Below the pieces are notes generated by a model. That model was not told the DNA's origin and searched no databases. It saw nothing but the letters and a program-made list of their open reading frames with translations. The translations under genes and the position numbers were made by a program. Of a stretch of 37,232 bases of DNA, positions 9,004 through 26,060 are shown one piece after another (within the stretch, counting starts at the first letter, position 1; every line of letters starts with the position of its first letter). This DNA comes from a virus, in IMG/VR virus record IMGVR_UViG_3300017770_000052, positions 1-37,232 of that record, one strand, 5' to 3'.

Positions 9004-9483
9004 ATGAGTGAACAGCAACAAGAACAAGACTTTCGCTTTTCAAGCGAGTTAAGTTATATGGGTATGCTCGACGATTTCGCAAAGAATAACGTAGAGCAAA
9101 ATAGTAGAGTAGAAAACTTTGGAAGCAATATATGGTTCCCAGATATTACAGGCTCTTTTCCTAACTTTGGTAATTCAGAGTTTAGTAGAGCAGCAGCTAA
9201 AGATGAGGCACTGTATGTTAATGAAGAAAGTCCTGAAGTACAGCTCTTTAATAGAGACGGTGTAACAGATATACGAGTAAACATAGATGAAGGAAATATT
9301 ATAACTGACCTTCCCTTTATAATCTGTAAGTACACTCTAGCTTTTGAAAACATTTGTACTCGCCAAAATACTAAACCTGGAGTTATTCAGTTTAATCTAG
9401 GAGTATTATGGGCTACTGAGGAACAAGTCGAAGAAATAGCAGATATGCTAGGAAAACAGATTAACTTTCCCATACATCCATAA
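9004..9483 (+). CDS. Unknown protein, last gene of the + operon
   Basis: The 159-aa product starts MSEQQQEQDFRFSSELSYMGM and has no recognised motif, signal peptide or membrane segment. It is acidic and contains an IWFPDITGSFPNFGN segment and a C-terminal part predicted to be alpha/beta (VIQFNLGVLWATEEQVEEIADML). The ribosome-binding site AAGGA lies 8 bases before ATG 9004. It follows the reductase gene by 11 bases and is followed immediately by an intrinsic terminator, so it is the distal gene of the replication operon. Position hints at nucleotide metabolism or replication, but nothing in the sequence proves it. Confidence 0.75.
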   Translation: MSEQQQEQDFRFSSELSYMGMLDDFAKNNVEQNSRVENFGSNIWFPDITGSFPNFGNSEFSRAAAKDEALYVNEESPEVQLFNRDGVTDIRVNIDEGNIITDLPFIICKYTLAFENICTRQNTKPGVIQFNLGVLWATEEQVEEIADMLGKQINFPIHP

Positions 9484-9489
9484 ACAACG

Positions 9490-9513
9490 AAGCCCCTTAA
9501 TCGGGGCTTTTTT
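9490..9513 (+). terminator. Intrinsic terminator at the convergence point
   Basis: AAGCCCC (9490-9496) pairs with GGGGCTT (9503-9509) across a 6-base loop TTAATC, followed by a T-run to 9513. It ends the + strand operon directly after the last stop. The stop codon of the converging - strand gene (9497-9499) lies in the loop. On the - strand the hairpin is followed by CGTTGTTTATGG, a poorer T-run, so bidirectional use is possible but less certain. Confidence 0.88.
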
Positions 9514-10210
9514 GTATGTCTGCAAACATCTGTCTTAACTTACCTACTCTCAATTTCGTAAGATTGCCAAGTCTTTCGACTACCTTTCTCTCTTTTTCAG
9601 GCAAATTATCCACATACGGTAACAGCCTATCAAAACAACATCCAAAAGTCTCTCTAACACTAGCATTCCCAGAATATAAGTGAGTAAGATAATTCAATAC
9701 AGGTGCATCATGACCTAGAGCGGCATAGGATAATATATCTCTACCACCCATACACGTACCTAGTGTAGGGTCGTCTCTATGGTTCATATATCTAGGCATA
9801 TAAAGAATTTTTTTACCCAATAGAAAGTTACTATCAGATGTAGGTACCTTTTTCCACTTATTAGGATTAATAATAAAAATAGACATATCTACAACCCCGT
9901 CATGTAAGCGACTCTTTATAAGATTATAGTTTGTTCTCCATTTAGGGTGATCAGAGAAAACAGCTTCCCTGCTCATAGCGAGGTGGTGTTTCTCTAGCTT
10001 TTCATCAGGAGGTAGGTCGCCTTCTTTTATGTTAAGAATTATTCCACCTGTTACAACCATAGTTAAGCCTTTGGCATGTTTAAAAGCTGTAGGCAGTCGA
10101 CCACCTTCTTCTAGGTCTACGACTTTATACTCTGCGTCTGGCATATTCTTTTTTATAGAATCTACGGTGAGAGAAGTGAAATTATTTTTGTTTAATACGA
10201 GATAGAACAT
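9497..10210 (-). CDS. Unknown protein; possible GT-A-like glycosyltransferase
   Basis: The 237-aa product is the terminal gene of the - strand block and overlaps the upstream GT-B-like gene by 29 bases, so the two are probably translated together. The N-terminus MFYLVLNKNNFTSLTVDSIK, followed by a strand-loop-strand pattern (VVDLEEGGRLPTAF, LTMVVTGGIIL), resembles the nucleotide-sugar fold of GT-A enzymes. No clear DxD metal motif is seen, so I leave the function open. Two adjacent cysteines (GCCFDRLL) and a basic C-terminus are present. A structural comparison would decide between a glycosyltransferase and a fibre accessory protein. Confidence 0.6.
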   Translation of the reverse strand: MFYLVLNKNNFTSLTVDSIKKNMPDAEYKVVDLEEGGRLPTAFKHAKGLTMVVTGGIILNIKEGDLPPDEKLEKHHLAMSREAVFSDHPKWRTNYNLIKSRLHDGVVDMSIFIINPNKWKKVPTSDSNFLLGKKILYMPRYMNHRDDPTLGTCMGGRDILSYAALGHDAPVLNYLTHLYSGNASVRETFGCCFDRLLPYVDNLPEKERKVVERLGNLTKLRVGKLRQMFADIQKSPD

Positions 10211-11060
10211 GGGGCGTTGATTTCCAAAAATTAAAAAAGTAGTCTATGCGTTCTTGCGGGTTGTCTATAAAATAGGGGACTAAACCTGAATACTTAGCAG
10301 ATAATAGTCTTTGAAGTTTTTCTATACTGGGAGTTTCATCTACCATTATTGCTCTATAAATAGATTTATACGTGGTGTAGGGAGAATCTGGTTTGTCAAA
10401 CAAATATAATGCCTTTCCTTTTGTAAGTGCTAAGATACCCATCTCGGAATTAGCGCAGCATCCCACAATATCTGCTTCTTCTAGTAGTCTATGACCAGAT
10501 AACTTCTTTGCTAGTACCTTGTCTCTTCCGAACTCAGACTTTAAGTATGCTACCATTCCAGGAGCGGTTAGTGGGTGGCACTTAAGTACTGCTCCCTGTG
10601 CTACAGCTCTTTTTGTCTTTTCAAAGTCCAGAACCTTGTCCAAGATATTAGTACCAGGAAGGAAAATAACAAATTTATGTTTTTTCTGTTTTCTTTTGCT
10701 AAGTTTATACTTATCCTGACTATTATTTTTTAATTCATTAAAAATAGCCATACCTTCCTTAGTAACAGGTTCTCTAGCAGCTAGTTCCATAGTGCGATGG
10801 CATTTTTCTACACAGGCAACCCTGAGCATTAAACACTTGGAAAATACATCAGTATATGTATAACCTAAAATATTTTCTTCGTCTATATCATACCATATAT
10901 CATACTCCAGAGGAGTAAACCAGTTACCGGTTTTAGGTAGTAGGTGTCTTAGCTTAGCAACTTCATCATTTTCATCTGAGCGCATTATATTCCCAGACTT
11001 GAAAAAGTGTGCCGCAGCATTTCCTAGCTCTTCGTTATCTGCTAGCTTTTTAAGGGGCAT
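10182..11060 (-). CDS. GT-B-like protein, capsule-polysaccharide-transferase type (tentative)
   Basis: The 292-aa product has in its second half the layout of capsule/CDP-glycerol-type GT-B transferases. A strand KFVIFLPGTN is followed by VLKCHPLTAP with H162-P163, then an ADIVGCCANSEMGILAL segment (N204-S205-E206), then KALYLFDKP. The His-Pro and the Asn-Ser-(S/E) loop before a helix are the usual donor-site landmarks. The N-terminal half is not recognised. It lies directly downstream of the 1512-aa Thr-rich protein and a 45-aa coiled-coil gene, and overlaps the latter by 11 bases. This suggests that it acts on, or with, that protein. Catalysis is inferred only. Confidence 0.6.
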   Translation of the reverse strand: MPLKKLADNEELGNAAAHFFKSGNIMRSDENDEVAKLRHLLPKTGNWFTPLEYDIWYDIDEENILGYTYTDVFSKCLMLRVACVEKCHRTMELAAREPVTKEGMAIFNELKNNSQDKYKLSKRKQKKHKFVIFLPGTNILDKVLDFEKTKRAVAQGAVLKCHPLTAPGMVAYLKSEFGRDKVLAKKLSGHRLLEEADIVGCCANSEMGILALTKGKALYLFDKPDSPYTTYKSIYRAIMVDETPSIEKLQRLLSAKYSGLVPYFIDNPQERIDYFFNFWKSTPHVLSRIKQK

Positions 11061-11187
11061 CTTGCAAAGCCTCTATGTCGGCTTCTAGGTCTTCCATGCG
11101 TTCTTCCATTTCTACGAAGTGCTCCATGACGATTTCTAATGTTGTTTCTAATTTATGATTTAATTCTTCAACGGTTATTCCGTCCAT
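11050..11187 (-). CDS. 45-aa coiled-coil protein
   Basis: The ATG at 11185-11187 opens a 45-codon frame ending at TAA 11050-11052. The product begins MDGITVEELNHKLETTLEIV, continues through HFVEMEERMEDLEADIEALQ and ends DAP. Leu, Ile, Val and Met recur with heptad spacing over residues 9-41, with acidic residues between, as in a short acidic coiled coil. It overlaps the end of the Thr-rich protein gene by 13 bases and the start of the GT-B-like gene by 11 bases, filling an otherwise empty gap exactly. It may be a trimerisation or chaperone peptide for the neighbouring fibre, by position only. No strong ribosome-binding site is seen, so translation is probably coupled. Confidence 0.72.
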   Translation of the reverse strand: MDGITVEELNHKLETTLEIVMEHFVEMEERMEDLEADIEALQDAP

Positions 11188-14100
11188 TGTGATCCATCCC
11201 AATATCGTGAGTTGTGTGCAGATGCAGAAGAAACTTCTGTTTCTACACCTGTGCTTGTGACACGCTCGTAAACAACTGTATTTGTTCCGAACGTAGTGGT
11301 TGTAGACCTCGAAGTACCTTTAGACGTATCGAACGTAGTGGTACGAGAGGTCGTGGTAGTTCTTGCAGTTCCATATATTGTAGAAAATGCAGTAGTCGTA
11401 CTTACAGTAGTTATGTTAGAAGTATTAAACACTGTAGTAAACGCTGTGGTACTACTTCTACTTGTAGTATCCGAAGTATCGAAAGTAGTAGTAGTTGACT
11501 TTTGCGTAGTAATATTTGTATTAAATACGGTTACAAATGCACTAGAAGTTGTTCTACTAGTAGAAGCCGTAGTATCAAAGGCAGTAGTAGTACTTTTAGT
11601 AGTTCCTCTGTTTGTAGCAGTATTAAATACAGAGGTAGTACTCCTAGAGGTGCCGTCAGATGTATCGAAAGTAGTAGTGTAAGCACTCGTTGTACTACGG
11701 CTGGTACCCCTACTGCTGTCAAATACAGTGGTAGTATCAAAGTTTGTAGTACGAGAAGTAGCTGTCGAATACGCGGTAGTAGTCGACTTAGTAGTAACAT
11801 TACTAGTATTGAATGTTGTTGTGTAAGCGCACCCTGTTTCGTTAGTAGTAATTCTGCTAGTTCCGAAAGTAGTAGTAGTACTTTTACTAGTACTAAATAC
11901 AGTTGTCGTTACAAAAGCGGTAGTAGTACTTTTACTTGTAATATTATTAGTTGCAAAAGTAGTAGTGTAAGCACTGGTAGTACTATGACTCGTTCCTCTA
12001 CTTGTTGCAAAGGTCGTGGTAAATGTACTAGTAGTGCTCTTGCTCGTGGCCGTATTAAATGCAGTCGTTGTGGCTTTACTAGTTATATTGCTCGTTCCAA
12101 AAGTCGTTGTAAATGCCGTAGTATATGTAGACACTGTAGACTTGCTAGTATTAAAAGTAGTTGTAAATGTTGTAGAAGTCGTCTTACTTGTTGCGGTCGC
12201 AAACGTAGTAGTAAAGGCAGTAGTTGTACTTTTACTAGTATTAAATGTAGTAGTGAATGACGTAGTGTACGCAGTAGTAGTGCTCAAAGTAGTATTTGTG
12301 TTAAAAGCACTAGTAGTCGCCCTACTTGTAGAAGTAAGGAAAGTCGTTGTAAAAGTAGTCGTAGTACTTTTACTAGTATTAAATATTGTGGAAAACGCAG
12401 TTGTATACGTAGTAGTCGTACTCTTACTTGTTGCCGTATTAAACGTTGTAGTAGTACTTCTGTTAGTCGCAAATGTAGTCGTAAACGTAGTAGTATATGT
12501 ACTAGTAGTACTACGACTAGTTGTTGTATTGAATGAGGTGGTTGTCCCTCTACTAGTACCCGTTGCTCGGTTCGTATTATAAACTGTGGTGGTGCTTTTT
12601 GAGGTCAAAAAAGCAGTTGTTGTATTAAACGCAGTAGTAGTTCCTCTGCTCGTACCTGTAGCAAAAGCAGTCGTGGTACTTCTACTAGTACCTGTTCCTC
12701 TACTTGTGGCAAAAGCAGTGGTAGTTCCTCTGCTCGTACCAGTACCCCGAGAAGTAGTGTAAGTAGTTGTTGTCCCTCTGCTAGTACCTGTTCCTCGATT
12801 CGTATTATAAACGGTAGTGGTTCCTCTACTAGTTCCTGTTCCGAAAGCGGTAGTTGTGCCAAAAGTAGTAGTACGGCTTGTAGCAGTGCCAAAAGACGTA
12901 GTAGTGCTATAGGCAGTAGTTGTTCCTCTGCTCGTACCTGTAACAAATGCAGTAGTTGTAGTATATGCAGTAGTCGTGCTCCGATTGGTACCAAAAGTAG
13001 TAGTTCGAGAGGTTTGCGTAGTACGGTTTGTAGCTGTGCCAAAAGAGGTGGTTGTAGTATATGCAGTAGTAGTACCTCTGCTAGTACCAAACGTAGTAGT
13101 TCTAGAGGTTTGCGTAGTACGACTAGTAGCTGTACCGAACGACGTAGTAGTACCAAACGTAGTAGTACGACTTGTAGCAGTAGATCTGGACTCTCCTGTA
13201 CTACGAGATTCTGCCGTACTACGGCTCGTGCCAAACGTAGTAGTTCTGCCCGTATTGAAACCAGTAACAGTTCCGAAATAGGTAGTCCAATAAGTAGTAT
13301 ATGAGGTAACCGTGTTTGTACCGGTATTAGAGTAAGTTCTCACAGAGAACGTAGTAGTTTGAGATGTAGTTTCCCAATACTGAGTAACACGATAAGTGCT
13401 ACGACTCTTGTAACCTCTACTATAGTAGTAAGTAACGTAAAAAGTATGTATATTCGTTTGAGCCAAAAATGTAGTTGTACGACTACTGCTACTGTCAACG
13501 ATAGTTTGGAACTCGGTAGCTGTATGCCTGCTAGTACCTCTGCTAGTTCCTAGTCCTGTTTGTGTAGTGCGACTAGTTCCCAGAGTAGTAGTACGGCTTG
13601 TGGCAAACGTAGTGCTAGTGCTGTACGCAGTAGTAGTACTATAGGCAGTAGTTGTTCCGAAAGTAGTAGTACGACTAGTGTTAGTCCCTCTCGAAGTAGT
13701 AGTGCCAAACGTAGTAGTAGTACCGAAAGTAGTTCCTCTGCTCGTAGCGAAACTAGTAGTAGTGCCTCTTGATTCACCTGTACCTCTCGAAGTAGTAGTA
13801 CCAAACGTAGTAGTAGTACCAAAAGTAGTTCCTCTGCTTGTATTGAAAGTGGTAGTGGTGCTTCTGGACTCTGCTGTACCTCTTGTGGTTGTTGTTCCGA
13901 AAGAAGTAGTTGTGCCTCTTGATTCTCCTGTAGACCTAGAAGTAGTTGTTGTGAAAGTAGTAGTACGACTAGTGTTGGTAGTTCTGCTAGTTGTCGTTGT
14001 GAAAGAGGTAGTCGTACCTTTACTGGTAGTAAAGGTAGTAGTTGTGCTAAAGGATGTGGTTGTACCTTTGCTTGTCAAAAAAGCAGTGCTAGTTGTGTAA

Positions 14101-15713
14101 GCAGTAGTAGTACCTCTTGAGGTTCCAAAAGTAGTAGTTGTACCAAACGCAGTTGTAGTAGCCTTGCTAGTAGTAGTATTAAAGGCTGTAGTTGTCCCTC
14201 TACTCGTACCAGTAGCCCTAGAAGTTGTAAAAGTAGTAGTTGTACCTTTACTAGTCGTAAATGTTGTAGTAGTATTAAAGGCTGTAGTTGTGCCTCTACT
14301 GGTACCTGTAGCAAAAGCAGTAGTAGTACTTTTATCTGTAATTCTATTAGTGCTTCTACTTGTTGCAAACGTGGTCGTTGTACCCCTTGTGGTAGCAGTA
14401 TTAAATACAGTAGTTGTACCTTTACTGGTTACACGAGAAGTTCCTCTACTTGTGTCATAGACAGAAGTAGTGCTCCTACTTGTACTCTTCGATGTATTTG
14501 TATTAAATACGGTAGTTGTACTACGAGTGGTTCCAGTTAAGAAAGTAGTTGTAGTACTTCTGCTAGTACCCCGACTTGTGCCTCGGCTAGTATTATAAAC
14601 TGTAGTTGTATCTTTGCTAGTGCCTCTTGAAGTCTGAGTATTAAATACACTCGTAGTATCTCTAGAAGTGCTTCTAGCTGTGTTAAAAGTAGTAGTGGTA
14701 GTTACATCTGTAGACCTACTAGTACCTCTAGAGGTATTATATGTAGTAGTATACGTGGTAGTAGTACTGCGGCTTGTTGCAGTATTAAAAGTGGTAGTAG
14801 TAGAAATAGTCGTAGTTCTACTAGTATTAAATGTGGTAGTATAATTGGTAGTGGTTGCTACAGTTGTGGCACGCGAAGTATTATACGTAGTTGTATAAGT
14901 AGTGGTAGTAGACCTACTAGTTCCTGTTCCAATACTTGTATTGAAAGTGGTAGTTGTACTTTTAGTAGTATCAAAATTAGTCGTATAAGTAGTAGTAGTG
15001 TTTACAATAGTAGTTTTACTAGTATTATACGTGGTAGTATAGTCTGTGACAGTCGACTTTGTAGTTGTGGTATTAAAAGTCGTAGTAAATACAGTATTAG
15101 TTGTAGCACTAGTAGCAAATGTGGTAGTAAATGCAGTTGTAGTCGCTTTCGTAGTACCTCTGCTAGTAGCAAAAGTAGTAGTAAATGCGGTAGTAGTTGC
15201 CTTACTTGTAGCTGTGTTAAAGGTAGTAGTATAGGCAGTTGTAGTAGCTTTACTTGTCCCAAACGTGGTATTAAACGTGGTAGTAGTACTTACTGTTGTA
15301 CCTCTGCTTGTGTCATACGTACTGACATAAGTAGTAGTTGTACTTTTTGAAGTTGCAAAAGTAGTGGTAAACGCAGTAGTAGTGCTTCTAGAAGTAGCGT
15401 TGGAAGTATCGTAATTAGTAGTGTAGGTACTAGTAGTACTACGAGAAGTTGTAGTATTTGTATCGAAAGAGGTAGTAGTACCAAAAGCAGTTGTTCTACT
15501 TGTTGCAAAAGTAGTAGTAAATGCGGTAGATGTGCTGGCAGAAGTTTGGGTGCTTCTAGAAGTATTATAAATAGCATTCCATACAGTGCTCAGACTTCCA
15601 TCTGTAACTTTCTGTACGACATAGTTTACAAACCGCAACGTTCCCGCTGCAGCTTTAACTACTATTTGCTCTGGTTCTTGTACTGCGGAACCATTCCAAA
15701 CCTTAATAGCCAT
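11175..15713 (-). CDS. Giant Thr/Ser-rich repeat protein, putative tail fibre or virion surface protein
   Basis: The 1512-aa product has a short N-terminal domain (residues 1-50, starting MAIKVWNGSAVQEPEQIVV) and about 1400 residues of low-complexity repeats such as TSRGTTTAFNT. It ends in a C-terminal cap finishing YWDGSQWTE. Roughly every second residue is Thr. Positions alternate strictly between a face of Thr, Phe/Tyr and Arg/Lys and a face of small residues (Ser, Gly, Ala, Thr, Asn), the pattern of an extended beta structure. An aromatic-rich island lies near residues 735-818. It has no Pro-rich or coiled-coil part and almost no Cys. It follows fibre accessory genes and precedes a GT-like gene. 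The start ATG has no ribosome-binding site and sits one base after the preceding stop (TAAGATG). Its function is not known; fibre is inferred. Confidence 0.8.
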   Translation of the reverse strand: MAIKVWNGSAVQEPEQIVVKAAAGTLRFVNYVVQKVTDGSLSTVWNAIYNTSRSTQTSASTSTAFTTTFATSRTTAFGTTTSFDTNTTTSRSTTSTYTTNYDTSNATSRSTTTAFTTTFATSKSTTTTYVSTYDTSRGTTVSTTTTFNTTFGTSKATTTAYTTTFNTATSKATTTAFTTTFATSRGTTKATTTAFTTTFATSATTNTVFTTTFNTTTTKSTVTDYTTTYNTSKTTIVNTTTTYTTNFDTTKSTTTTFNTSIGTGTSRSTTTTYTTTYNTSRATTVATTTNYTTTFNTSRTTTISTTTTFNTATSRSTTTTYTTTYNTSRGTSRSTDVTTTTTFNTARSTSRDTTSVFNTQTSRGTSKDTTTVYNTSRGTSRGTSRSTTTTFLTGTTRSTTTVFNTNTSKSTSRSTTSVYDTSRGTSRVTSKGTTTVFNTATTRGTTTTFATSRSTNRITDKSTTTAFATGTSRGTTTAFNTTTTFTTSKGTTTTFTTSRATGTSRGTTTAFNTTTSKATTTAFGTTTTFGTSRGTTTAYTTSTAFLTSKGTTTSFSTTTTFTTSKGTTTSFTTTTSRTTNTSRTTTFTTTTSRSTGESRGTTTSFGTTTTRGTAESRSTTTTFNTSRGTTFGTTTTFGTTTSRGTGESRGTTTSFATSRGTTFGTTTTFGTTTSRGTNTSRTTTFGTTTAYSTTTAYSTSTTFATSRTTTLGTSRTTQTGLGTSRGTSRHTATEFQTIVDSSSSRTTTFLAQTNIHTFYVTYYYSRGYKSRSTYRVTQYWETTSQTTTFSVRTYSNTGTNTVTSYTTYWTTYFGTVTGFNTGRTTTFGTSRSTAESRSTGESRSTATSRTTTFGTTTSFGTATSRTTQTSRTTTFGTSRGTTTAYTTTTSFGTATNRTTQTSRTTTFGTNRSTTTAYTTTTAFVTGTSRGTTTAYSTTTSFGTATSRTTTFGTTTAFGTGTSRGTTTVYNTNRGTGTSRGTTTTYTTSRGTGTSRGTTTAFATSRGTGTSRSTTTAFATGTSRGTTTAFNTTTAFLTSKSTTTVYNTNRATGTSRGTTTSFNTTTSRSTTSTYTTTFTTTFATNRSTTTTFNTATSKSTTTTYTTAFSTIFNTSKSTTTTFTTTFLTSTSRATTSAFNTNTTLSTTTAYTTSFTTTFNTSKSTTTAFTTTFATATSKTTSTTFTTTFNTSKSTVSTYTTAFTTTFGTSNITSKATTTAFNTATSKSTTSTFTTTFATSRGTSHSTTSAYTTTFATNNITSKSTTTAFVTTTVFSTSKSTTTTFGTSRITTNETGCAYTTTFNTSNVTTKSTTTAYSTATSRTTNFDTTTVFDSSRGTSRSTTSAYTTTFDTSDGTSRSTTSVFNTATNRGTTKSTTTAFDTTASTSRTTSSAFVTVFNTNITTQKSTTTTFDTSDTTSRSSTTAFTTVFNTSNITTVSTTTAFSTIYGTARTTTTSRTTTFDTSKGTSRSTTTTFGTNTVVYERVTSTGVETEVSSASAHNSRYWDGSQWTE
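11290..15590 (-). repeat. Degenerate Thr-rich coding repeat array
   Basis: This is the repetitive part of the 1512-aa protein. The main unit is about ten codons, T-S-[RK]-[GS]-T-T-T-x-[FY]-x, with 8-codon and shorter variants. Thr codons vary between ACT, ACA, ACG and ACC from copy to copy, so the repeat is far stricter in protein than in DNA. That implies selection on the amino-acid pattern rather than recent DNA duplication. Confidence 0.85.
13260..13510 (-). other. Aromatic-rich non-repeat island in the Thr-rich protein
   Basis: Residues about 735-818 break the array with stretches such as TFYVTYYYSRGYKSRSTYR and TQYWETTSQTTTF and then TSYTTYWTTYFGTV. Tyr and Trp are frequent here and Trp is otherwise confined to the two ends of the protein. 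It may be a folded domain, hinge or binding head in the middle of the fibre. Confidence 0.7.
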
Positions 15714-17225: not shown

Positions 17226-17591
17226 TTAAAAGGCTCCTGCGTCAAGCGTGTCTGAATCATCGTCAGCTGAACCTACAATTATAGGTACCCACTGGAATAC
17301 TCCGCTGCTTGTTTCGCGATATATTTTATATTGATTGTCGTCCGTATCGTACCATGTGTCCCCTTCGTTGACTTGAGACCCTGTTGGTGTGTTTGCTTGT
17401 GAAAAATTTTGTCCTGCTAATTCTTCTAGAGCGTCCTGTACATTACTAGCGGATAAACCGGAAACTGAAGAAATACCCATAGCAGATGCAACGGTACTAG
17501 CAATAGCTATACCTGCTGCTGTAATAGTTGTTGTTTCCTCTGTAACTTCTACGCCATTTTGTACTGGTGTTGCCGTAATTGTAATCGCCAT
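17226..17591 (-). CDS. Small fibre/baseplate accessory protein
   Basis: The 121-aa product starts MAITITATPVQNGVEVTEET and has an alanine-rich middle (ITAAGIAIASTVASAMG). A segment SASNVQDALEELAGQ is of a type often found in phage fibres, and GDTWYDTDDNQYKIYRETS is a frequent tail fibre module. It ends TLDAGAF. The ATG overlaps the previous stop (TAATG), with AGGAGG 10 bases upstream. It is part of the P2 operon with the 112-aa protein before it and the fibre after it. It is structural by composition and position; its exact role is unknown. Confidence 0.72.
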   Translation of the reverse strand: MAITITATPVQNGVEVTEETTTITAAGIAIASTVASAMGISSVSGLSASNVQDALEELAGQNFSQANTPTGSQVNEGDTWYDTDDNQYKIYRETSSGVFQWVPIIVGSADDDSDTLDAGAF

Positions 17592-17929
17592 TATCGAGTA
17601 ACCTCCTGAGTCAAATCTACAGTACCTTGTATAATTCTTGTTACTGACGCATTATTAGCAGTGAAAATTTCTAAATCGTAAACATATGTTCCGGCTACTA
17701 GAGGAGTACTCACTGAATTTGCTAAGGATAGCGTTATTGTTCCATTGGAAGGATTGGCTATGTTACAAGTAAAATTAGCTGTAACAGAGGTAGCTGTCTT
17801 TGAAGTTCTCATTTGAGCACGCGCAGAGTAGCCTGTCAGGTCTTTAGCTGATCCATCTTCTTTGACTGTAAAGTTAATGGCAAAGTCGGAACCTTGGTCA
17901 ATAACTAGGTTGTAGCGGGCTGCACTCAT
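17591..17929 (-). CDS. Small virion protein with Ig/BppU-like domain
   Basis: The 112-aa product starts MSAARYNLVIDQGSDFAINF and continues TVKEDGSAKDLTGYSARAQM. That order (R-Y-LVI-QG-DF, then DLTGY-ARAQ-R) is the conserved start of phage baseplate upper-protein-like beta-sandwich domains common in marine phage tails. It ends DLTQEVTR. It is the first gene after promoter P2, and GGAGG lies 6 bases upstream of the ATG. It probably forms a baseplate or fibre adaptor; the family resemblance is moderate. Confidence 0.72.
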   Translation of the reverse strand: MSAARYNLVIDQGSDFAINFTVKEDGSAKDLTGYSARAQMRTSKTATSVTANFTCNIANPSNGTITLSLANSVSTPLVAGTYVYDLEIFTANNASVTRIIQGTVDLTQEVTR

Positions 17930-17998: not shown

Positions 17999-19009
17999 TT
18001 ATAGCAGTAATTGTTTAATACGAGCCAAAGTTGATGGGTAGTCGTAACATTGATACTTTGTACTATACCAAGCGGCCCATTCTCTGGCCTTTTTTCTGTT
18101 CCACCAACTTAAATCATTAACATACTCCGGCAATAGGTCTAGATGTCTTAAGTCTTTGGTTTCCCAGTGGTACTCAGGGAACCCGTACGAAATAATAGGT
18201 ACTTCGTGTAAAAAACACTCTATACCTGCTGTACTGTTTTCCAGTATAGCTACTTTTGTTTTAGGAAGCACATCATGCATACTGACTCCTGCTATAATTA
18301 CAGTATGTCCCTTGCTGATAAAGTTATCAACTTGAGGTAAATATAATGATTCCCAGTCTTTTATTTTTGATGTTTCTATTTTGAAAGTAGGATGTAGTTT
18401 AATTACAATAGGGTCTGATACAGTTTTTTCTAATTTATTTACTATACTAACTAGTTTATTGAAGTGACTGCCAAAAGACATCTGTGTAACTGTTTCATCC
18501 CCAGGCATTTGACCTAGTACTAAAATATGGTTTTCAGGAATATAAGGAGCTTTCTCGGTAAGCTTAATATCTTCCCTATCACTCCACTTGTTAAGTTTCT
18601 GAGATATTATATCTTTAACAGTGGTATTAAAAAATTCTTCCGTTTCTGTACCTTCATATGCAGGTTTTTCATATGCTATAGAGGAACAAGGTCCATATCC
18701 TTGAGTATCTATCGTAAAGTACTTATGTGTAGGGCCTGTAGGCTTTACAATTAAAGTTTTCCTACCTAGGTGTGCTTTATTTTCTTTTAACCAATTAATA
18801 GTAACATGATTATAAAGATAAACATCTTCGGAAGAGTCTACTATTTCTTCCGACACGTATTCGGGGGTGTCTGGAAGATCTATAAACTGACTCTTTCTAA
18901 CATCATACCCTAGTTCATCAAATGCTTTAATTATATCTAAATAAATTGTTGCCCAGTTATTCCTTAGCTTTCTAAAACGTGTTGCACATAGATTAACTTT
19001 CGGCATCAT
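17999..19009 (-). CDS. Capsule-polysaccharide-type GT-B glycosyltransferase
   Basis: The 336-aa product resembles the KpsC/KpsS capsule-synthesis family of GT-B transferases. The N-terminal half carries NLCATRFRKLRNNWATIYLD. The C-terminal half has VIKLHPTFK with H206-P207, VIIAGVSMHDVLPK, then AILENSTAGIECFLHEVPII with N258-S259 and E264. These mark the nucleotide-sugar (often CMP-Kdo) site in the family. It overlaps the oxygenase gene by 17 bases and shares its promoter P3, so the two probably work together. In bacteria such enzymes build surface polysaccharide. Here, between fibre genes, the target is more likely a virion protein, or else the host surface. Start choice: two ATGs in tandem; the first is given. 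Confidence 0.75.
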   Translation of the reverse strand: MMPKVNLCATRFRKLRNNWATIYLDIIKAFDELGYDVRKSQFIDLPDTPEYVSEEIVDSSEDVYLYNHVTINWLKENKAHLGRKTLIVKPTGPTHKYFTIDTQGYGPCSSIAYEKPAYEGTETEEFFNTTVKDIISQKLNKWSDREDIKLTEKAPYIPENHILVLGQMPGDETVTQMSFGSHFNKLVSIVNKLEKTVSDPIVIKLHPTFKIETSKIKDWESLYLPQVDNFISKGHTVIIAGVSMHDVLPKTKVAILENSTAGIECFLHEVPIISYGFPEYHWETKDLRHLDLLPEYVNDLSWWNRKKAREWAAWYSTKYQCYDYPSTLARIKQLLL

Positions 19010-19634
19010 TGTACCACCCAGAAATTGCTAATCTAGGGCGAGGAGCAAAAGAGGATACTTCACTTACAAAGTGTAACTTACCTGTTTCTCCTAGTTCTAA
19101 CAGTACTAAATCTCCCCAACCAGGAACATAACTAGTCCAAGTATCTCCATTTTCTATGTTTAGAATTCCTCCGTATTCAGGTTTCCAATCCCAAGAAAGA
19201 TTGAATATAAATGCAACACCTCTTTTCTCATCGGTGTGTCTACCCAAAAAGTCTCCAGGATAGTATGCGGAAGTGAACGTTTCGTATAAAACAGGATTTT
19301 CTAGGCTTGTATTTTTTCGTATAACATCTTTGAATTTTTCAGACTCTAGTACTTCTTTTTTAAAGGTGCACTCCCAACAGCCACAACCTTTGACATGATT
19401 AGTACTTCGACTAAATTTATAAGTAAAGTCATTAGAGTTAACACTGTTTGTAATATGATGAGAAGCTCCATACTCCTGCCTATACCCACCGATATTGTTA
19501 TTCATCATTATAGGTTTAGCAGTTTTATTATGCTTAATAGCCTTGCTCCACCAGTGAGCAGGAGTGCCATCAGCAGCACAAGCTAAATTCCACGATTCAT
19601 CATGTGAAAGATAGTTTTTTAATATTTTTATCAC
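18993..19634 (-). CDS. 2-oxoglutarate/Fe(II)-dependent oxygenase (prolyl-4-hydroxylase-like)
   Basis: The 213-aa product has the double-stranded beta-helix motif set: H133-T-D135 in GRHTDEKRG, the distal H188 in KLHFVSEV, and R201 and S205 in RPRLAISGWY for 2-oxoglutarate. YYPGDFLGRHTD and EYGGIL are typical of prolyl-hydroxylase-like enzymes. It has an unusual Cys cluster CGCWEC at residues 84-89. The start is GTG 19632-19634 with AAAGGTG just upstream. It sits directly after the gene for a collagen-like tip protein, under its own promoter P3, and overlaps the glycosyltransferase gene. Hydroxylation of a fibre residue is the natural hypothesis, but the substrate is not shown by the sequence. 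Confidence 0.85.
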   Translation of the reverse strand: MIKILKNYLSHDESWNLACAADGTPAHWWSKAIKHNKTAKPIMMNNNIGGYRQEYGASHHITNSVNSNDFTYKFSRSTNHVKGCGCWECTFKKEVLESEKFKDVIRKNTSLENPVLYETFTSAYYPGDFLGRHTDEKRGVAFIFNLSWDWKPEYGGILNIENGDTWTSYVPGWGDLVLLELGETGKLHFVSEVSSFAPRPRLAISGWYNDAES

Positions 19635-19663
19635 GAAAACACCTTTATTTAGTTTTTAAATTT

Positions 19664-19687
19664 AGGGGGTATTATAGCATACCCCCT
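19664..19687 (-). promoter_or_regulatory. 9-bp inverted repeat over the P3 -10 box (operator-like)
   Basis: AGGGGGTAT (19664-19672) and ATACCCCCT (19679-19687) form a perfect 9-bp dyad with a 6-base centre covering the -10 box and reaching the expected start site. It looks like a repressor or activator site. As a terminator for the upstream fibre gene it would lack a T-run (AAATTTAAA follows). Confidence 0.65.
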
Positions 19688-19699
19688 AGATTATGTCAA
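19671..19699 (-). promoter_or_regulatory. Sigma70-type promoter P3 (consensus -35 and -10)
   Basis: On the - strand TTGACA (19694-19699) and TATAAT (19671-19676) are 17 bases apart. It stands in the 75-base gap between the collagen-like tip gene and the GTG of the oxygenase gene, with an expected start near 19664. It gives the oxygenase/glycosyltransferase pair its own transcription start. Confidence 0.86.
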
Positions 19700-19709
19700 G
19701 ATTTAAATT

Positions 19710-22700
19710 TTACAGCTGACCGATTCTTACTCGTAGAGTACTTCCTTGATATACCTCGATTCTACCATTTATACCGTCCATCTTTATACTACCGCTGCTT
19801 CCTGGAGTACTTACTCTGGTATATTCAGTAAAACTAGTACCACTACCATTATATTTAAAGGCTCTATCACTTGCAACGTGCCAATATACATCTCCTGCCA
19901 ATATGGGACTTTTTACTGCTTCAATAGTTGACTTTTTGAGAGTATCAGATCTCGGAGTTCCGCCATTTTCTACGGTATCGAAGGCAATAGTAGCACCTGG
20001 TGCACCTGCAGGACCTGTTGGGCCTTGTACGCCTGTTCCACCAGTAGGACCTACTCCACCTCCGGGACCTGTTGGACCTAAAACACCTGTTGGACCTAAT
20101 GGACCTGTTGGACCTACTCCACCGCCTGGGCCTGTTGGACCTACTACACCTGTTGGACCGTTAGGACCTGTTGGACCTACTGCACCGCCTGGACCTGTTG
20201 GACCTACTGCACCGCCTGGACCTGTTGGGCCTTGGGGACCTGCTCCACCGCCTGGACCTGTTGGACCTGCTCCACCTGTGGGACCGTTAGGACCTGTTGG
20301 ACCTGCTGCACCGCCTGGACCTGTTGGACCTGCTGCACCGCCTGGACCTGTTGGACCTTGAGGACCTGCACCACCGCCTGGACCTGTTGGACCTGCACCA
20401 CCTGTTGGTCCTAGTGGACCTGTGGGACCTACTCCACCTCCGGGACCTGTTGGGCCTGCTGCACCTCCTGGACCTGTTGGACCTTGAGGACCTGCTCCAC
20501 CTCCAGGACCTGTTGGGCCTGCGCCACCTGTTGGACCATTCGGGCCTGTTGGACCTGCTGAACCTGTCGGACCTGCGGGACCTGCGCCACCTGTTGGACC
20601 TGCGGGACCTGCGCCACCTGTTGGACCTGCTGAACCTGTTGGACCGCCGGGGCCTGTTGGACCTGCGCCACCTGTTGGACCAGGAGTTGTTCCTGCTGGA
20701 CCTGTGGGACCTAAAACACCTGTTGGACCTACGCCACCTGTTGGACCTGCTGCTCCTGCGGGGCCTGTTGCACCCAATGGACCTGTTGGACCTGCGCCAC
20801 CTGTTGGACCTGCTGGACCTGCTCCACCTGTTGCACCTTGCGGACCGGTGGGACCTAATGCACCACCTGGACCTTGTGGGCCTGTGGGGCCTGCTGAACC
20901 TGCTCCACCTGTTGGGCCTGCTGGACCACCTGGACCGCCTGGACCTGTGGGACCTGCTGCTCCTGCGGGGCCTGTTGGACCTACTGCACCGCCCGGACCT
21001 CCTGGGCCTGTTGGACCTGCTCCGCCTACTGGGCCTGTTGGACCTACTGCACCACCTGGACCTCCTGGTCCTGTTGGACCTGCTCCACCTGCTGGACCTG
21101 TAGGACCTAATGCACCACCCGGTCCTTGCGGGCCTGTTACACCTGTTGAACCTGCGGGACCTGTTGGACCTGCAGCACCGCCCGGACCTTGTGGGCCTGT
21201 TACACCTGTTGCACCTGCTGGACCTGTTGGACCTGCCGGACCTCCTGGACCTTGTGGGCCTGTTACACCTGTTGGACCTGCGGGACCTGTTGGGCCTGGG
21301 GGACCTCCTGGACCTTGCGGACCTGTACCACCTGCCGGACCTGTACCACCTATAGGACCACTTGGACCAGCAGGAGAAACACTCAAAGTCTGTGTGCGTG
21401 CAAAAGTTAACTCGTTTCCTAAACTATCATTAACAACTATATTTATAACTACACTACCAGATGCTCCGTTTATAGCAGTTATAGGCCCTAAAGTGTAGAA
21501 ATCAGATCCTGTTGTTATACTGCCAAGAGTAACATTGCTAGGGGTTACGCTGGAAACCCTAAAAGAGGGTAAAGCGTAAGGAGTTGAATCATCGTAAGGT
21601 ATTTGTGTACCTGCGATATTAAGAGTAAGTGTAGTTCCTGTATTTGAAAAGTCTAAAGAGCCTCCAGAAGTAGCAATACTAACATTCTCATTAGTTAGAT
21701 TTATATTTATAGCATCTAACGCTCCATTAGAAGTTCCTTGTATCCCTGCTGTGGCACTGGAAGGCTCATACAGCGAGAATACCTGTCTGCTTGTTGCGTT
21801 TGAAGGAGAAACGTTTACTGCATATCTAATCCAGTAATAACGTGTAGTTGTTCCGTCCCCAATTACAGGGTCAGTGTATGTATTACCCTGAGAGGTACCT
21901 ATAAGATTGAGAGAGCTATGTCCTCTGTCATTTACTTCGGCTCTCCATATTTCGGTAGTATAGGTGGCAGGATTAAAAGCAGAAGAATTAACCCAGTTTA
22001 GTTCAACACCACCCCTGTCCGTAGTAGTAGCCGTAAGACTATTCGCAGTAGGTGAAGCAGGAACAGGAACCGGTGCAGTTATAGGCGCGGGTGCAGATAC
22101 AAACGTACCTTCTGAAACTTCAACAGTATCAATTAAATATGCACTATCTTCATGCTCTTCGGCAGTTACTTGAACTAAGCAATTTGCGTTAATACTTAAA
22201 TTAGTAATGCGGTAAATTTTATTCGTCCACCCAAAACGAGGATATGTTATACGAATAAGATCACCTGCTAGTAACAAAACACCTCTTGGAGCTAAGGTAA
22301 AGTTGACCTTTACAGACGCTCTAGATTCATCTAGATACTGTTTTGCATTCATTCTAGCGTTAAAATAGTTGGTAACATAAGGAGCTTTTACACTTCCTTT
22401 TTTAGGAACCATTCTATCTTCTTTCAGATATTTAGAGTTAAACATCATTACGCTACGACCTTCGAATCTGTTTTGAGGGTCGTTAATTCCTACATCTACT
22501 TGGTTGTAAGTACCTTTTTGTCCGGCATCTTGTACATCTATTTTTCCAATGATATCGCTTTCATTTATGTCTTCTATAGTATAGGTTTCGATTCCAACTG
22601 TAAATGTGGTAGGGCTTTCTGCTCCCTTTTTCAAAGCTAACGAATATTTACCCGCAGAGTATCTTAACATTCCATTAAAATGCCCTAACATACTATTAAT

Positions 22701-25700
22701 GTTGTTAAATATTGACTTAGAAGTATCAAGAGTAACATTTGTTTGATGACGAGTAACGTGTCTTTGGTTCTGCGACTCCCAGCCTAAGTATCTCCAATAT
22801 TTAACATCATCAGAGTCGTATAAACTATAGCCACTAGTGTACCCTGTAGAAGAGTATGTTTTGACAACAGGATCTCCTTCAAAGGTATGTCTATTGTGAT
22901 AAGTTGCGTCAGAGTTTCTGTTTATATCTACAGCCAGAGTGCTTGAGCCTGAACCGGAAACTTTAGTAATTGTTAAAGAAGTTTTAAAATTAGGACTACC
23001 CGAAGCTGCTGGCGTAGATACAGTACTTGCGCTACCACTATGCTCATAAAGTCTTCCATTATGGTAGTATAAATCTTCATCAGCAAATATCTTCCAATCT
23101 GCCCATCTTGTTACGATTTTGCCTAAAACATTTTCAAAAACGACACTACGTCTAGTATTGCCATCTATAGTAATAGGGCTTCCTACACTCTTTACTGTAC
23201 CTTGCCATGCCGTTCCATAAGAGGAAGATGACGTTGCATATTTATACACATCTCCTACAACAGGCTCGTTTGAGCCTACAAAAAGAGTTACATCAGAGTT
23301 AGTGTCACAAGCTCTTGCTGTTTGGAAAAAGCTATCTGCATCCAGATCTTGGTCTAAAGAAAGATTTCTTCCATACCTATCACTTTGCATATAGTCTAAG
23401 AGCTGCATTGCAGGGTTGTTGGTAACTCTTAAATCACCTCCCTTAGAACCTATAATACTATAAGTATCACCTTGCTTAGGCAAAAACTCAAAAGGAGAGT
23501 CTAGTAGTGCAACTCTATTACTACCTTGATAGTCTACTATGTTTCTTCGCTGAGTTCTTAATTCTCCTCCGGAAAGAGTCGTAGTGACTTCTATGTCCAT
23601 ACCGTTGTAGTAGTTATTAGTGGTTTCGGCAGTGCTAGCTAAAACTAAGGCTTTAGTAGGTACTACGTAGTCTCCTACTATTGTGGAAGCATTTACTTGA
23701 GTTTCACCAACATTTGAAAGAGTTCCGCTACTTACATTATCTGGAACAAACTGGTTCAAAAGAGAGCTAGAAAACTCCTCTGTTAAACTTTGTACAATAC
23801 TGAAAGGTCTATCCGTAGGGAACGCGGCAAGTGCAGTATGCGCATTGCTACTACTACTAATGGCAATATCAATACCGCCACCTGAGTTATTAGTTACTCC
23901 TGTAATTGCAGCTGCTAAAGTGGAGGGAAGGCTTGCTGTATGCTCCACAGCATCATAAGCGACCAGATGAAGATCGTTTGTTCCATCAGTTATGTAGAAC
24001 TTTTTAAAGCCTCCCATAGAGGGCATACTAGTAAATTGTATCCTAGACTCTTTTGACGCGGTGCTACCTACAGGGATAATTTGGTAAATATCTTTTACAG
24101 TTGTAGTTCCAATTGTAACATCAGCCTGACCTGTACCAGTCATATCTCCTTTAACAGTAACCGTTTGGCCTATCTGAAAATTGGTAATATCTTCGCCTGT
24201 TGCCGAAGGGTCTAACTCAAAAGAAAAATCGTAATTATAGCATTTTACAGCCTTACCTCGAACAACAAAATCAACACTGGGTATTGTAGTTTCTCCTTCC
24301 CCAATGGTGTATTCAATAACCATATAAGCCGTATCTAAGAGTCTATGGTTAGCTCCCCAATAAGGCTCTGAGCCTTGATAATATTCATTTCCTACCTTGA
24401 AGTTGTCAACATTGGATAAAAGCATGTCTGCTGCTTTCTGATCTCTTTTACCAGAAAAGAACTGACATTTCGCATCTATAGGAGTGGTAAACCCTATACC
24501 TTTTTCATGCGTAATACCGAAACCGTTGGCATCTCCTTGCAAGGCCGGAGTTGTAGTTCTTGTATCATTATAACTACTTCTAGCATAATATGCTTCATAG
24601 CCCGCTCCGGAGCTATAAGACCATGTATTCTGTGCTGCGCCTTGAGCTTGTGTAGTACCTCCGGTGTACAAGTTGCCTCCACTTGTTACAACGAGTCCTT
24701 TTAAGGTATCACCTCTATCCATTCTGCCTGCACATAAAACATCAATAGTGTTCTCTGCGGTTTGACTGCTTCTAGTGTCATTATCGTTTTTGTCTATACA
24801 AATAGAAGTCGTGTCATCAAAGTACATATCATAGATGCCTCCGATTTCTCCCTCACATATTGCATATGCAACAAAAACTTTACGAGAATTATTAGCCAAC
24901 GTATCTACAAAAACTGGAATACTGTCAATCTTATTAACACCATAGATAACAGGAAGATATTTTGCATCTAAGTTAAAACGTAAATCTGCCTCTCTGTCTA
25001 CTTCAATTTGATATTCGATCTGCTTGTACTTCTTCATGCCGATCCAATTTCTTTTCATTTTTAACTTAGTTCTAGTTTCTTTAATCTGATAAATAGCTAC
25101 TAAGTTAATAGCTTGTTCGCTATGTAAGAAACCCAAGTCTGATGCATATGCAGGTCTAATCGCAGCTAAAGGACTTGCTCTATTGTTTTCATCCAAAGCT
25201 CTGTGCGAACCGTCTGAAGTGATTCGTCCTTGTACTCGAGAAAAGTCTCCCCAGTGACTGGTGAGTGTCCATGTTATCATAGACTCTTTTGCAGGGTTTT
25301 CGCTAATCTTTCCCGAGGCGATGATACCTTTAAATATTAGATATGGCTCTCCTATAATAGAACCTATTGGATAAACTGTACCATCTATTATTTCTTCTTC
25401 TACTCGAAGATGTGCTTTATAGACAAATACGTCTCTGTTTAAATATTTTGCATACGTAGAGTCCGCACTAGAATCTCTTTCTGTGATTATGCCCTCAATC
25501 TCTGGACTAGAAAAAGTTAAGGTAAGAGATTGTCCCGAACCTTGTCCCATAGTAGTATTTTGAGGGGTTATGTTAGCTCTTGTATTATTAAGCTCGAAAC
25601 TCTCTATTCTTATACTTTTTCCATCATTTAATCCGCCCGAAATCGTTAATACGTCACCTTCTCGTAAACCTTCGTCAACTAAATCTTTAGTTCCTGTAAT

Positions 25701-26060
25701 GGTTCCCGAACTTACTGTATAAGTATCCGATACCGAAGTACTTAAAGCAGCGGCAGAAAGCTGTAAAGACATACTACTACTTTTAGCTTCAATAGTTTCT
25801 GTGATAGAGCCTACAGATCTAATTTTATTTGCTATGTAAGTTTGAGCCCCGTTAGCGACTCCCAAGGCTGTAGTAGAACCATCGTTAAAAACTATGTCAT
25901 GAGAGCCGTCGCTCAAGTACACATAATCTTCAGGTCGACGACCACTTTGGCCGGTAGCTGTTAGTAACGGCTTTTCAAACTTTATTAGGTGTGCATAAGT
26001 AAAAGGCTTTTCTGCAAGCAAAGAAGCCTTCGTGTCACTGTGTAAATTTCTAACGCCCAT
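19710..26060 (-). CDS. J-like central tail tip protein with collagen-like domain
   Basis: The 2116-aa product starts [20 protein letters not shown]. The middle has J/TipJ-type landmarks: [20 protein letters not shown] near residues 580-605, and [10 protein letters not shown] then [12 protein letters not shown] near 880-907. A fibronectin-III-like region lies at about 1335-1430. Residues 1565-2024 form a collagen-like domain of 153 Gly-X-Y triplets. The last 30 residues ([20 protein letters not shown]) are the beta-rich end common to phage tip proteins, and may trimerise the collagen. Lambda J is 1132 aa, so this is nearly twice as long. It forms the hub and central fibre that contacts the host receptor. 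The ATG overlaps the stop of the distal tail gene. Confidence 0.85.
20142..20519 (-). repeat. Three tandem 126-bp (14-triplet) repeats in the collagen domain
   Basis: Three copies of a 14-triplet unit [20 protein letters not shown](A/V) GPT GPG (GGV, GAA or GAV) GPT GP(L/N) GPT (GGA or GVV) stand in tandem, followed by a degenerate partial copy. Differences are conservative. Confidence 0.85.
20919..21296 (-). repeat. Six tandem 63-bp (7-triplet) repeats in the collagen domain
   Basis: Two sub-types, three copies each: GPT GPA Gx[10 protein letters not shown] GxA or GAL, then GPT GP(A/V) G(G/A)[13 protein letters not shown] or GPA. The total length (378 bp) equals that of the 126-bp array in the other half of the domain. 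Confidence 0.85.

Follow-up and report, generated by a model that had tools for sequence, protein, structure and literature searches.

A putative fibre-modification cassette behind a collagen-like phage tail-tip gene, pairing a predicted prolyl-hydroxylase-type oxygenase with a predicted Kdo-transferase-type glycosyltransferase

Viral modification of collagen is known from mimivirus and chlorovirus. Mimivirus L230 and the animal PLOD/LH3 enzymes bring together a 2-oxoglutarate (2OG) oxygenase and a glycosyltransferase acting on collagen, which for L230 is the virus's own collagen-like protein. Among oxygenases of the prolyl-hydroxylase type, OGFOD1 and Tpa1 (prolyl 3-hydroxylases of ribosomal uS12), PPHD (the EF-Tu prolyl 4-hydroxylase) and PHD2 each modify individual prolines, in globular or HIF substrates. 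Virus-encoded enzymes of this type include the P4H of PBCV-1 and viral P4HA, counted as an auxiliary metabolic gene, and the use that viruses make of P4H has been termed 'cryptic' (PMC9301287). The Bacillus exosporium collagen BclA is rich in Gly-Pro-Thr (GPT) triplets and carries O-glycans, with modifying enzymes, among them an anthrax P4H, encoded in the same organism (PMC8968730). On the glycosyltransferase side, retaining Kdo transferases are defined by two motifs, QXXXD for the nucleophile and (K/R)XHP for CMP binding (PMC10148158, PMC12887879). In a search confined to the open literature, where absence is no proof, we found no report of collagen hydroxylation in phages; a linked phage cassette, a predicted Kdo-type glycosyltransferase and PLOD fusions next to phage fibres likewise appear undescribed there.

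The locus described here, from a marine phage, lies in a linear IMG/VR record of 37,232 bases, analysed over its whole length (hereafter the window), with the tail block on the minus strand. Its major tail protein and helicase are 28-44% identical to those of T5-like phages of Gram-negative hosts, and we therefore regard the phage as probably a distant T5-like siphophage with a probably Gram-negative host. Three consecutive minus-strand genes encode a J-like tail-tip protein of 2116 aa (19710..26060), a 2OG-Fe(II) oxygenase of 213 aa with a GTG start (18993..19634) and a GT-B glycosyltransferase (GT) of 336 aa (17999..19009), the latter two overlapping by 17 bases (18993-19009). Flanking the pair are two perfect sigma-70 promoters of the form TTGACA-17-TATAAT, both on the minus strand and both conserved in the related record L009: P3 (19671..19699), with a TG before the -10, and P2 (17950..17978), which precedes the next fibre-associated gene. 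Perfect TTGACA-N16-18-TATAAT sites number three in the window against 0.03 expected. An initial annotation, made from the sequence alone, had proposed these reading frames, the overlap and the consensus promoters, and all of them held up. A 9-bp perfect inverted repeat (AGGGGGTAT/ATACCCCCT; 19664..19687, minus strand), identical in L009, encloses the -10 of P3 and is a possible operator of this promoter. The downstream edge of the oxygenase-GT insert is marked by a gene resembling BppU_N and L-shaped-fibre-assembly proteins (17591..17929, minus strand; PF10651 6e-6, phrog_1084 1e-27, phrog_3304 5.6e-19).

Models of lambda-J-type central fibres (phrog_31 central tail fiber J, 1.8e-36; PF13550, 9.5e-8) recognise the tip protein, as does Pfam Collagen (PF01391, 1.6e-14), the collagen-like region lying towards the C-terminus (19998..21368, minus strand; about aa 1565-2021). 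Counting reproduced the previously given 153 Gly-X-Y triplets, 47 of them GPT, and a stricter parse yields 151 with one break at aa 1790. Proline occupies the X position in 103 of the 153 triplets and the Y position in 2, and the Y position carries Thr in 59 and Lys in none. The Y position is the classical P4H substrate position in collagen. Since the X-Pro-Gly arrangement required by collagen P4H is confined to 2/153 triplets, classical collagen P4H chemistry is unlikely and nearly excluded as the bulk reaction; hydroxylation at X is an alternative consistent with the triplets of the window. The locus resembles the BclA system in its GPT-rich collagen and in having modifying enzymes encoded by the same organism, but the enzymes and sugars differ, and BclA is neither part of a phage tail nor served by a linked two-gene cassette.

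The window also encodes a protein of 1512 aa (11175-15713, minus strand) built of low-complexity, TSRSTTTTFNT-like repeats with 43% Thr and 14% Ser, whose N-terminal 50 aa are conserved and whose relatives reach 1780 aa with 43% Thr; it is a candidate for another glycosylation substrate. Directly behind it stands a second GT-like gene (10182-11060, minus strand), weakly Capsule_synth-like, with a phrog_26179 match and a KCHP motif. By annotation of three regions, no Thr-rich gene is evident next to the relatives of this gene in Caulobacter, Vibrio and Stenotrophomonas phages. Opposite the collagen and Thr-rich genes, the plus strand has long reading frames (19903-21498 and 11214-14460, respectively), which the repeats in the coding sequence have most likely produced as artefacts.

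The oxygenase matches Pfam 2OG-FeII_Oxy_4 above the cut-off (PF13661, 2.3e-14). The metal and cosubstrate residues singled out initially (H133, D135, H188 and R201), that is, the HxD...H iron triad and the 2OG-binding Arg, are all invariant in a seven-sequence alignment, as is a C84-x-C86-x-x-C89 motif, and the family profile built from these seven members matches human OGFOD1 at 7e-15. Structure prediction likewise agreed with the earlier description as prolyl-hydroxylase-like: the AlphaFold model (pLDDT 92) adopts the double-stranded beta-helix fold of prolyl hydroxylases, and its top Foldseek matches, namely OGFOD1 (8e-8), Pseudomonas PPHD (1e-7), yeast Tpa1 and PHD2, are all prolyl hydroxylases, with moderate TM-scores of 0.45-0.6. 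The protein is thus predicted to be of the prolyl-hydroxylase type, within the OGFOD1/PPHD/PHD group. It shares the metal and 2OG residues of these enzymes, from which an N-terminal region peculiar to the phage family, containing the conserved CxCxxC, and the proposed repeat substrate set it apart. Its bacterial relatives are PPHD-like proteobacterial proteins, near which a collagen-like ORF was found in 0/24 loci. In INPHARED, 358 records match 2OG-Fe(II) oxygenase or 'prolyl hydroxylase'; tblastn of the window's oxygenase against this collection recovered one weak match. The specific HMM found no match in random GPT/GPQ collagen loci, so the window's oxygenase family is uncommon, and it is other 2OG clades that carry the wider theme.

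For the second enzyme, the capsule-type GT-B assignment was upheld and could be narrowed to the retaining-Kdo-transferase type by its motifs and a KpsC-like model. Its only Pfam match is Capsule_synth (PF05159, 2e-7, above the cut-off). In a 10-row alignment, Q167 and D171 of the QXXXD nucleophile motif, which is also present in L369, L373 and L370, are invariant, as are K204, H206 and P207 of the KXHP CMP-binding motif, and E119, the candidate general-base Glu in a YE/FE context, is found in most rows and is absent from L023 and L028. The best Foldseek match of the model (pLDDT 88) is E. coli KpsC (8fuw, 2e-9), followed by others that include WaaG, WbbB and KrkA, the structural match standing at about 14% identity. 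Because both Kdo-transferase motifs are present, the predicted donor is CMP-Kdo or similar, which a Gram-negative host supplies. Such a sugar would differ from the known BclA glycans. To our knowledge, KpsC-type acceptors are lipids and glycans rather than proteins, and we know of no precedent for protein-linked Kdo on a virion. With KpsC (GT107), WbbB (GT99) and KrkA (GT140), the window's GT has the GT-B fold, QXXXD and KXHP in common (PMC10148158, PMC12887879), whereas the acceptor proposed for it is a protein or protein-bound glycan. No match to it emerged from tblastn against INPHARED.

Among relatives of the pair, most of which are fragmentary records, the oxygenase gene lies right behind a collagen gene, or one gene off, in seven lineages: the window with L009, L012 (with its near-copies L011, L013 and L014), L018, L019, L369, L371 and L373. 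In L018, L019, L369, L371 and L373 it is the collagen tip itself that precedes the enzyme. The GT is also behind collagen in all seven lineages except L012, where its place is taken by a gene that weakly matches MptE/Maf-like and methyltransferase families, and L371; in L021 and L027 the collagen gene is followed by the GT alone, and in L023 the pair stands behind a non-collagen fibre gene of 2574 aa. The link to collagen, for which the initial annotation suggested a search, recurs for the oxygenase in these seven lineages; in several others the pair or the oxygenase sits beside ribonucleotide reductase (RNR) genes. In L361, L362, L363-L368, L370 and L022 the oxygenase is found at the end of the early block behind RNR genes (identified by Pfam in L022), and in L022 and L370 the GT and one further gene, a methyltransferase in L022, come after it. 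Relatives with the pair and neither a collagen-like nor a Thr-rich gene nearby had been named as grounds for abandoning the idea; G008 (L022) answers to this in part, having the pair beside RNR and no collagen gene in 34 kb, though a 21% Thr gene does occur in the nearby tail block. In G014, the GT is without an oxygenase partner and no collagen gene is present in 38 kb. The coupling of the pair to collagen is not exclusive, and G008, G014 and the RNR-linked copies are the main points against it. Methyltransferase genes also lie behind the GT in L022 and L025, and in L373 a gene judged by eye to be methyltransferase-like (9432-9998) separates the collagen tip from the oxygenase; these neighbours hint at glycan or protein methylation.

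An empty-site comparison comes from G011, a close relative of the window in the early block (helicase 72% identical). Its homologous tip has the same terminal motif and no collagen in the 672 aa covered, and a P2-type promoter and the phrog_1084 gene come immediately after it, from which we conclude that the insert site is empty. The oxygenase of G011 lies elsewhere, beside nrdAB, and its GT next to a DnaB-like helicase; it also has GPT-rich collagen, encoded in a separate fibre.

We also surveyed viral contigs that were drawn with the degenerate patterns (GPT)2 and (GPQ)2, without regard to the genes nearby. At positions +1 to +6, 2OG genes filled 25/587 gene slots downstream of collagen and 3/617 upstream, and counted per locus the nearest 2OG gene lay on the downstream side in 15 cases and on the upstream side in 1 (p = 5e-4), an asymmetry to which the fixed gene order within tail operons could contribute. 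Among these collagen-linked oxygenases, a single pair is >60% identical. PF13640 occurs in 19/100 collagen records and 0/27 random contigs, an enrichment that is merely suggestive because the small control set consists of shorter contigs. The collagen-neighbouring oxygenases belong to a clade that stands well apart from the family of the window, so that two distant clades occupy the same position; hhalign between the two was uninformative. Collagen loci with and without 2OG genes showed no significant difference in GPT fraction, Y-position Thr or Y-position Pro, so triplet make-up alone fails to predict the enzyme, except for Lys at Y with PLOD. The sampled contigs also include closely spaced 2OG genes, five in L287 and three in L296, and L329 (G056) has three in tandem, the two collagen genes of that record having an unusually high 25-32% Pro at Y, where classical P4H acts.

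The exception concerns true PLOD-like fusions, which occur in related phage cassettes. L081 encodes GT25, GT_PLOD and 2OG domains in one chain beside a collagen gene, L125 has a partial gene matching this fusion, again beside a collagen gene, and L131, L086, L139 and L188 gave PLOD HMM matches. Lys makes up 15-23% of Y positions in 5/6 PLOD loci, the exception being L188 with almost none; for the 171 other loci the median is 0 (p = 4e-4). The same combination is present in cultured phages, with PLOD domains identified by HMM: the Synechococcus phages S-PRM1, S-CAM9 and S-8S53 (L375, L376, L378) carry a row of fibre, small gene, 2OG, 2OG and PLOD fusion, and the Roseobacter phage CRP-6 (L377) a row of fibre, tail protein and PLOD fusion. 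In these fibres Lys accounts for 26-44% of Y positions, and the existing annotation of these genes is mostly hypothetical protein. Such a match of enzyme type to triplet type, PLOD with Lys-rich collagen, is what fibre modification predicts. The window itself differs from L230 and PLOD in that its enzymes are separate and have no GT25, GT_PLOD or lysyl hydroxylase Pfam match, its GT is of the Kdo-transferase type and Lys is absent from the Y positions of its collagen.

Taken together, we consider it fairly probable that the pair modifies the collagen-like fibre of the virion, because collagen adjacency recurs in independent lineages, the insert site is empty where the G011 tip lacks collagen, a second oxygenase clade occupies the same position and PLOD enzymes stand beside Lys-rich collagens. 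The fibre modification suggested by the initial annotation therefore survives as the best reading, weakened by the presence of the pair without collagen in G008, by the other RNR-linked and collagen-free copies and by the near-absence of Y-position Pro. The oxygenase and GT would form a self-contained cassette that has a promoter of its own and sits as an insert between the tip gene and the fibre gene after it. Gene order, families, catalytic motifs, folds, recurrence in relatives and the empty site are what the analysis shows; for the substrate residues, the sugar and the benefit, we infer the following. Once the tip is synthesised, the oxygenase would hydroxylate side chains of the collagen region, either ahead of trimerisation or in its course, the likeliest target being Pro at X of Gly-Pro-Thr/Ala/Gly/Gln triplets, and the GT would then add a Kdo-like acidic sugar, from host CMP-Kdo, to a fibre hydroxyl, either a Y-position Thr or, as the triplets also permit, the new hydroxyproline. 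Model peptides of Gly-Hyp-Thr and of Gly-Pro-Thr(galactosyl) are reported to form stable triple helices and plain Gly-Pro-Thr none, so that both enzymes would serve one purpose; the likely gain would be a more stable, hydrated and protease-resistant fibre. A broader proposal, which we put forward tentatively and regard as rather doubtful, is that tailed phages widely own collagen-maturation machinery, with clade-specific hydroxylases (OGFOD1-like, P4H-like and PLOD fusions) suited to whichever triplets the neighbouring collagen-like fibre has (X-Pro/Y-Thr or Y-Lys), together with exchangeable GTs, the window's fibre carrying X-position hydroxyproline and Kdo.

Some of the same observations allow other substrates. 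The pair might act on another virion protein, such as the tip outside its collagen region or the fibre with 43% Thr (11175-15713), with collagen adjacency merely reflecting the tail block. The presence of so Thr- and Ser-rich a product in the window, the L023 pair behind a non-collagen fibre and the collagen-free G008 speak for this; yet the Thr-rich gene has its own adjoining Capsule_synth-like gene, the enzyme follows the collagen tip itself in five relatives, and collagen and insert are jointly missing from the G011 site, which leaves this reading fairly unlikely. Alternatively, the host could be the target, the oxygenase hydroxylating EF-Tu or uS12 in the manner of PPHD, OGFOD1 and Tpa1 and the GT altering a host surface glycan. 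The closest characterised oxygenases do hydroxylate one proline of EF-Tu or uS12, not collagen, the nearest solved structures and the PPHD-like proteobacterial relatives without collagen nearby point the same way, KpsC-type GTs build capsule linkers, and some copies belong to the early block beside nrdAB. Against a host target stand the repeated position in the late tail operon right behind collagen genes and the occupation of that place by two distant oxygenase clades, and we judge it unlikely.

The RNR-linked sets of L022 and L370, with oxygenase, GT and a further gene, could also recall the phage TET/JBP dioxygenases that work with glycosyltransferases to make hypermodified DNA bases. Even with the Pfam threshold relaxed to E <= 1, however, only 2OG-FeII_Oxy_3/4 and no TET_JBP domain was matched, the fold is of the prolyl-hydroxylase type and the GT resembles Kdo transferases and not a DNA glucosyltransferase; DNA hypermodification was accordingly rejected as highly improbable. 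It is very unlikely, too, that the genes are chance neighbours, general auxiliary functions landing at a permissive site beside the tip, even though 2OG genes are abundant in marine phages and a cassette with its own promoter that is elsewhere or missing in relatives marks the tip-adjacent site as an insertion point. Random arrival would sit poorly with the downstream/upstream asymmetry of 2OG genes, with the missing insert at the collagen-free G011 tip and with the pairing of PLOD enzymes and Lys-rich collagens.

Where viral P4H and P4HA are known as prolyl-hydroxylase-type enzymes, the use proposed here for the window's oxygenase comes from gene linkage to collagen fibres, and it is this linkage that turns the cryptic use of viral 2OG oxygenases and prolyl hydroxylases into a testable proposal. 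If modification of the fibre by the pair is correct, the enzymes would offer a compact means of modifying recombinant bacterial collagen, and the hydroxylation and glycosylation of collagen, known in giant viruses and chloroviruses, would also be a phage trait.
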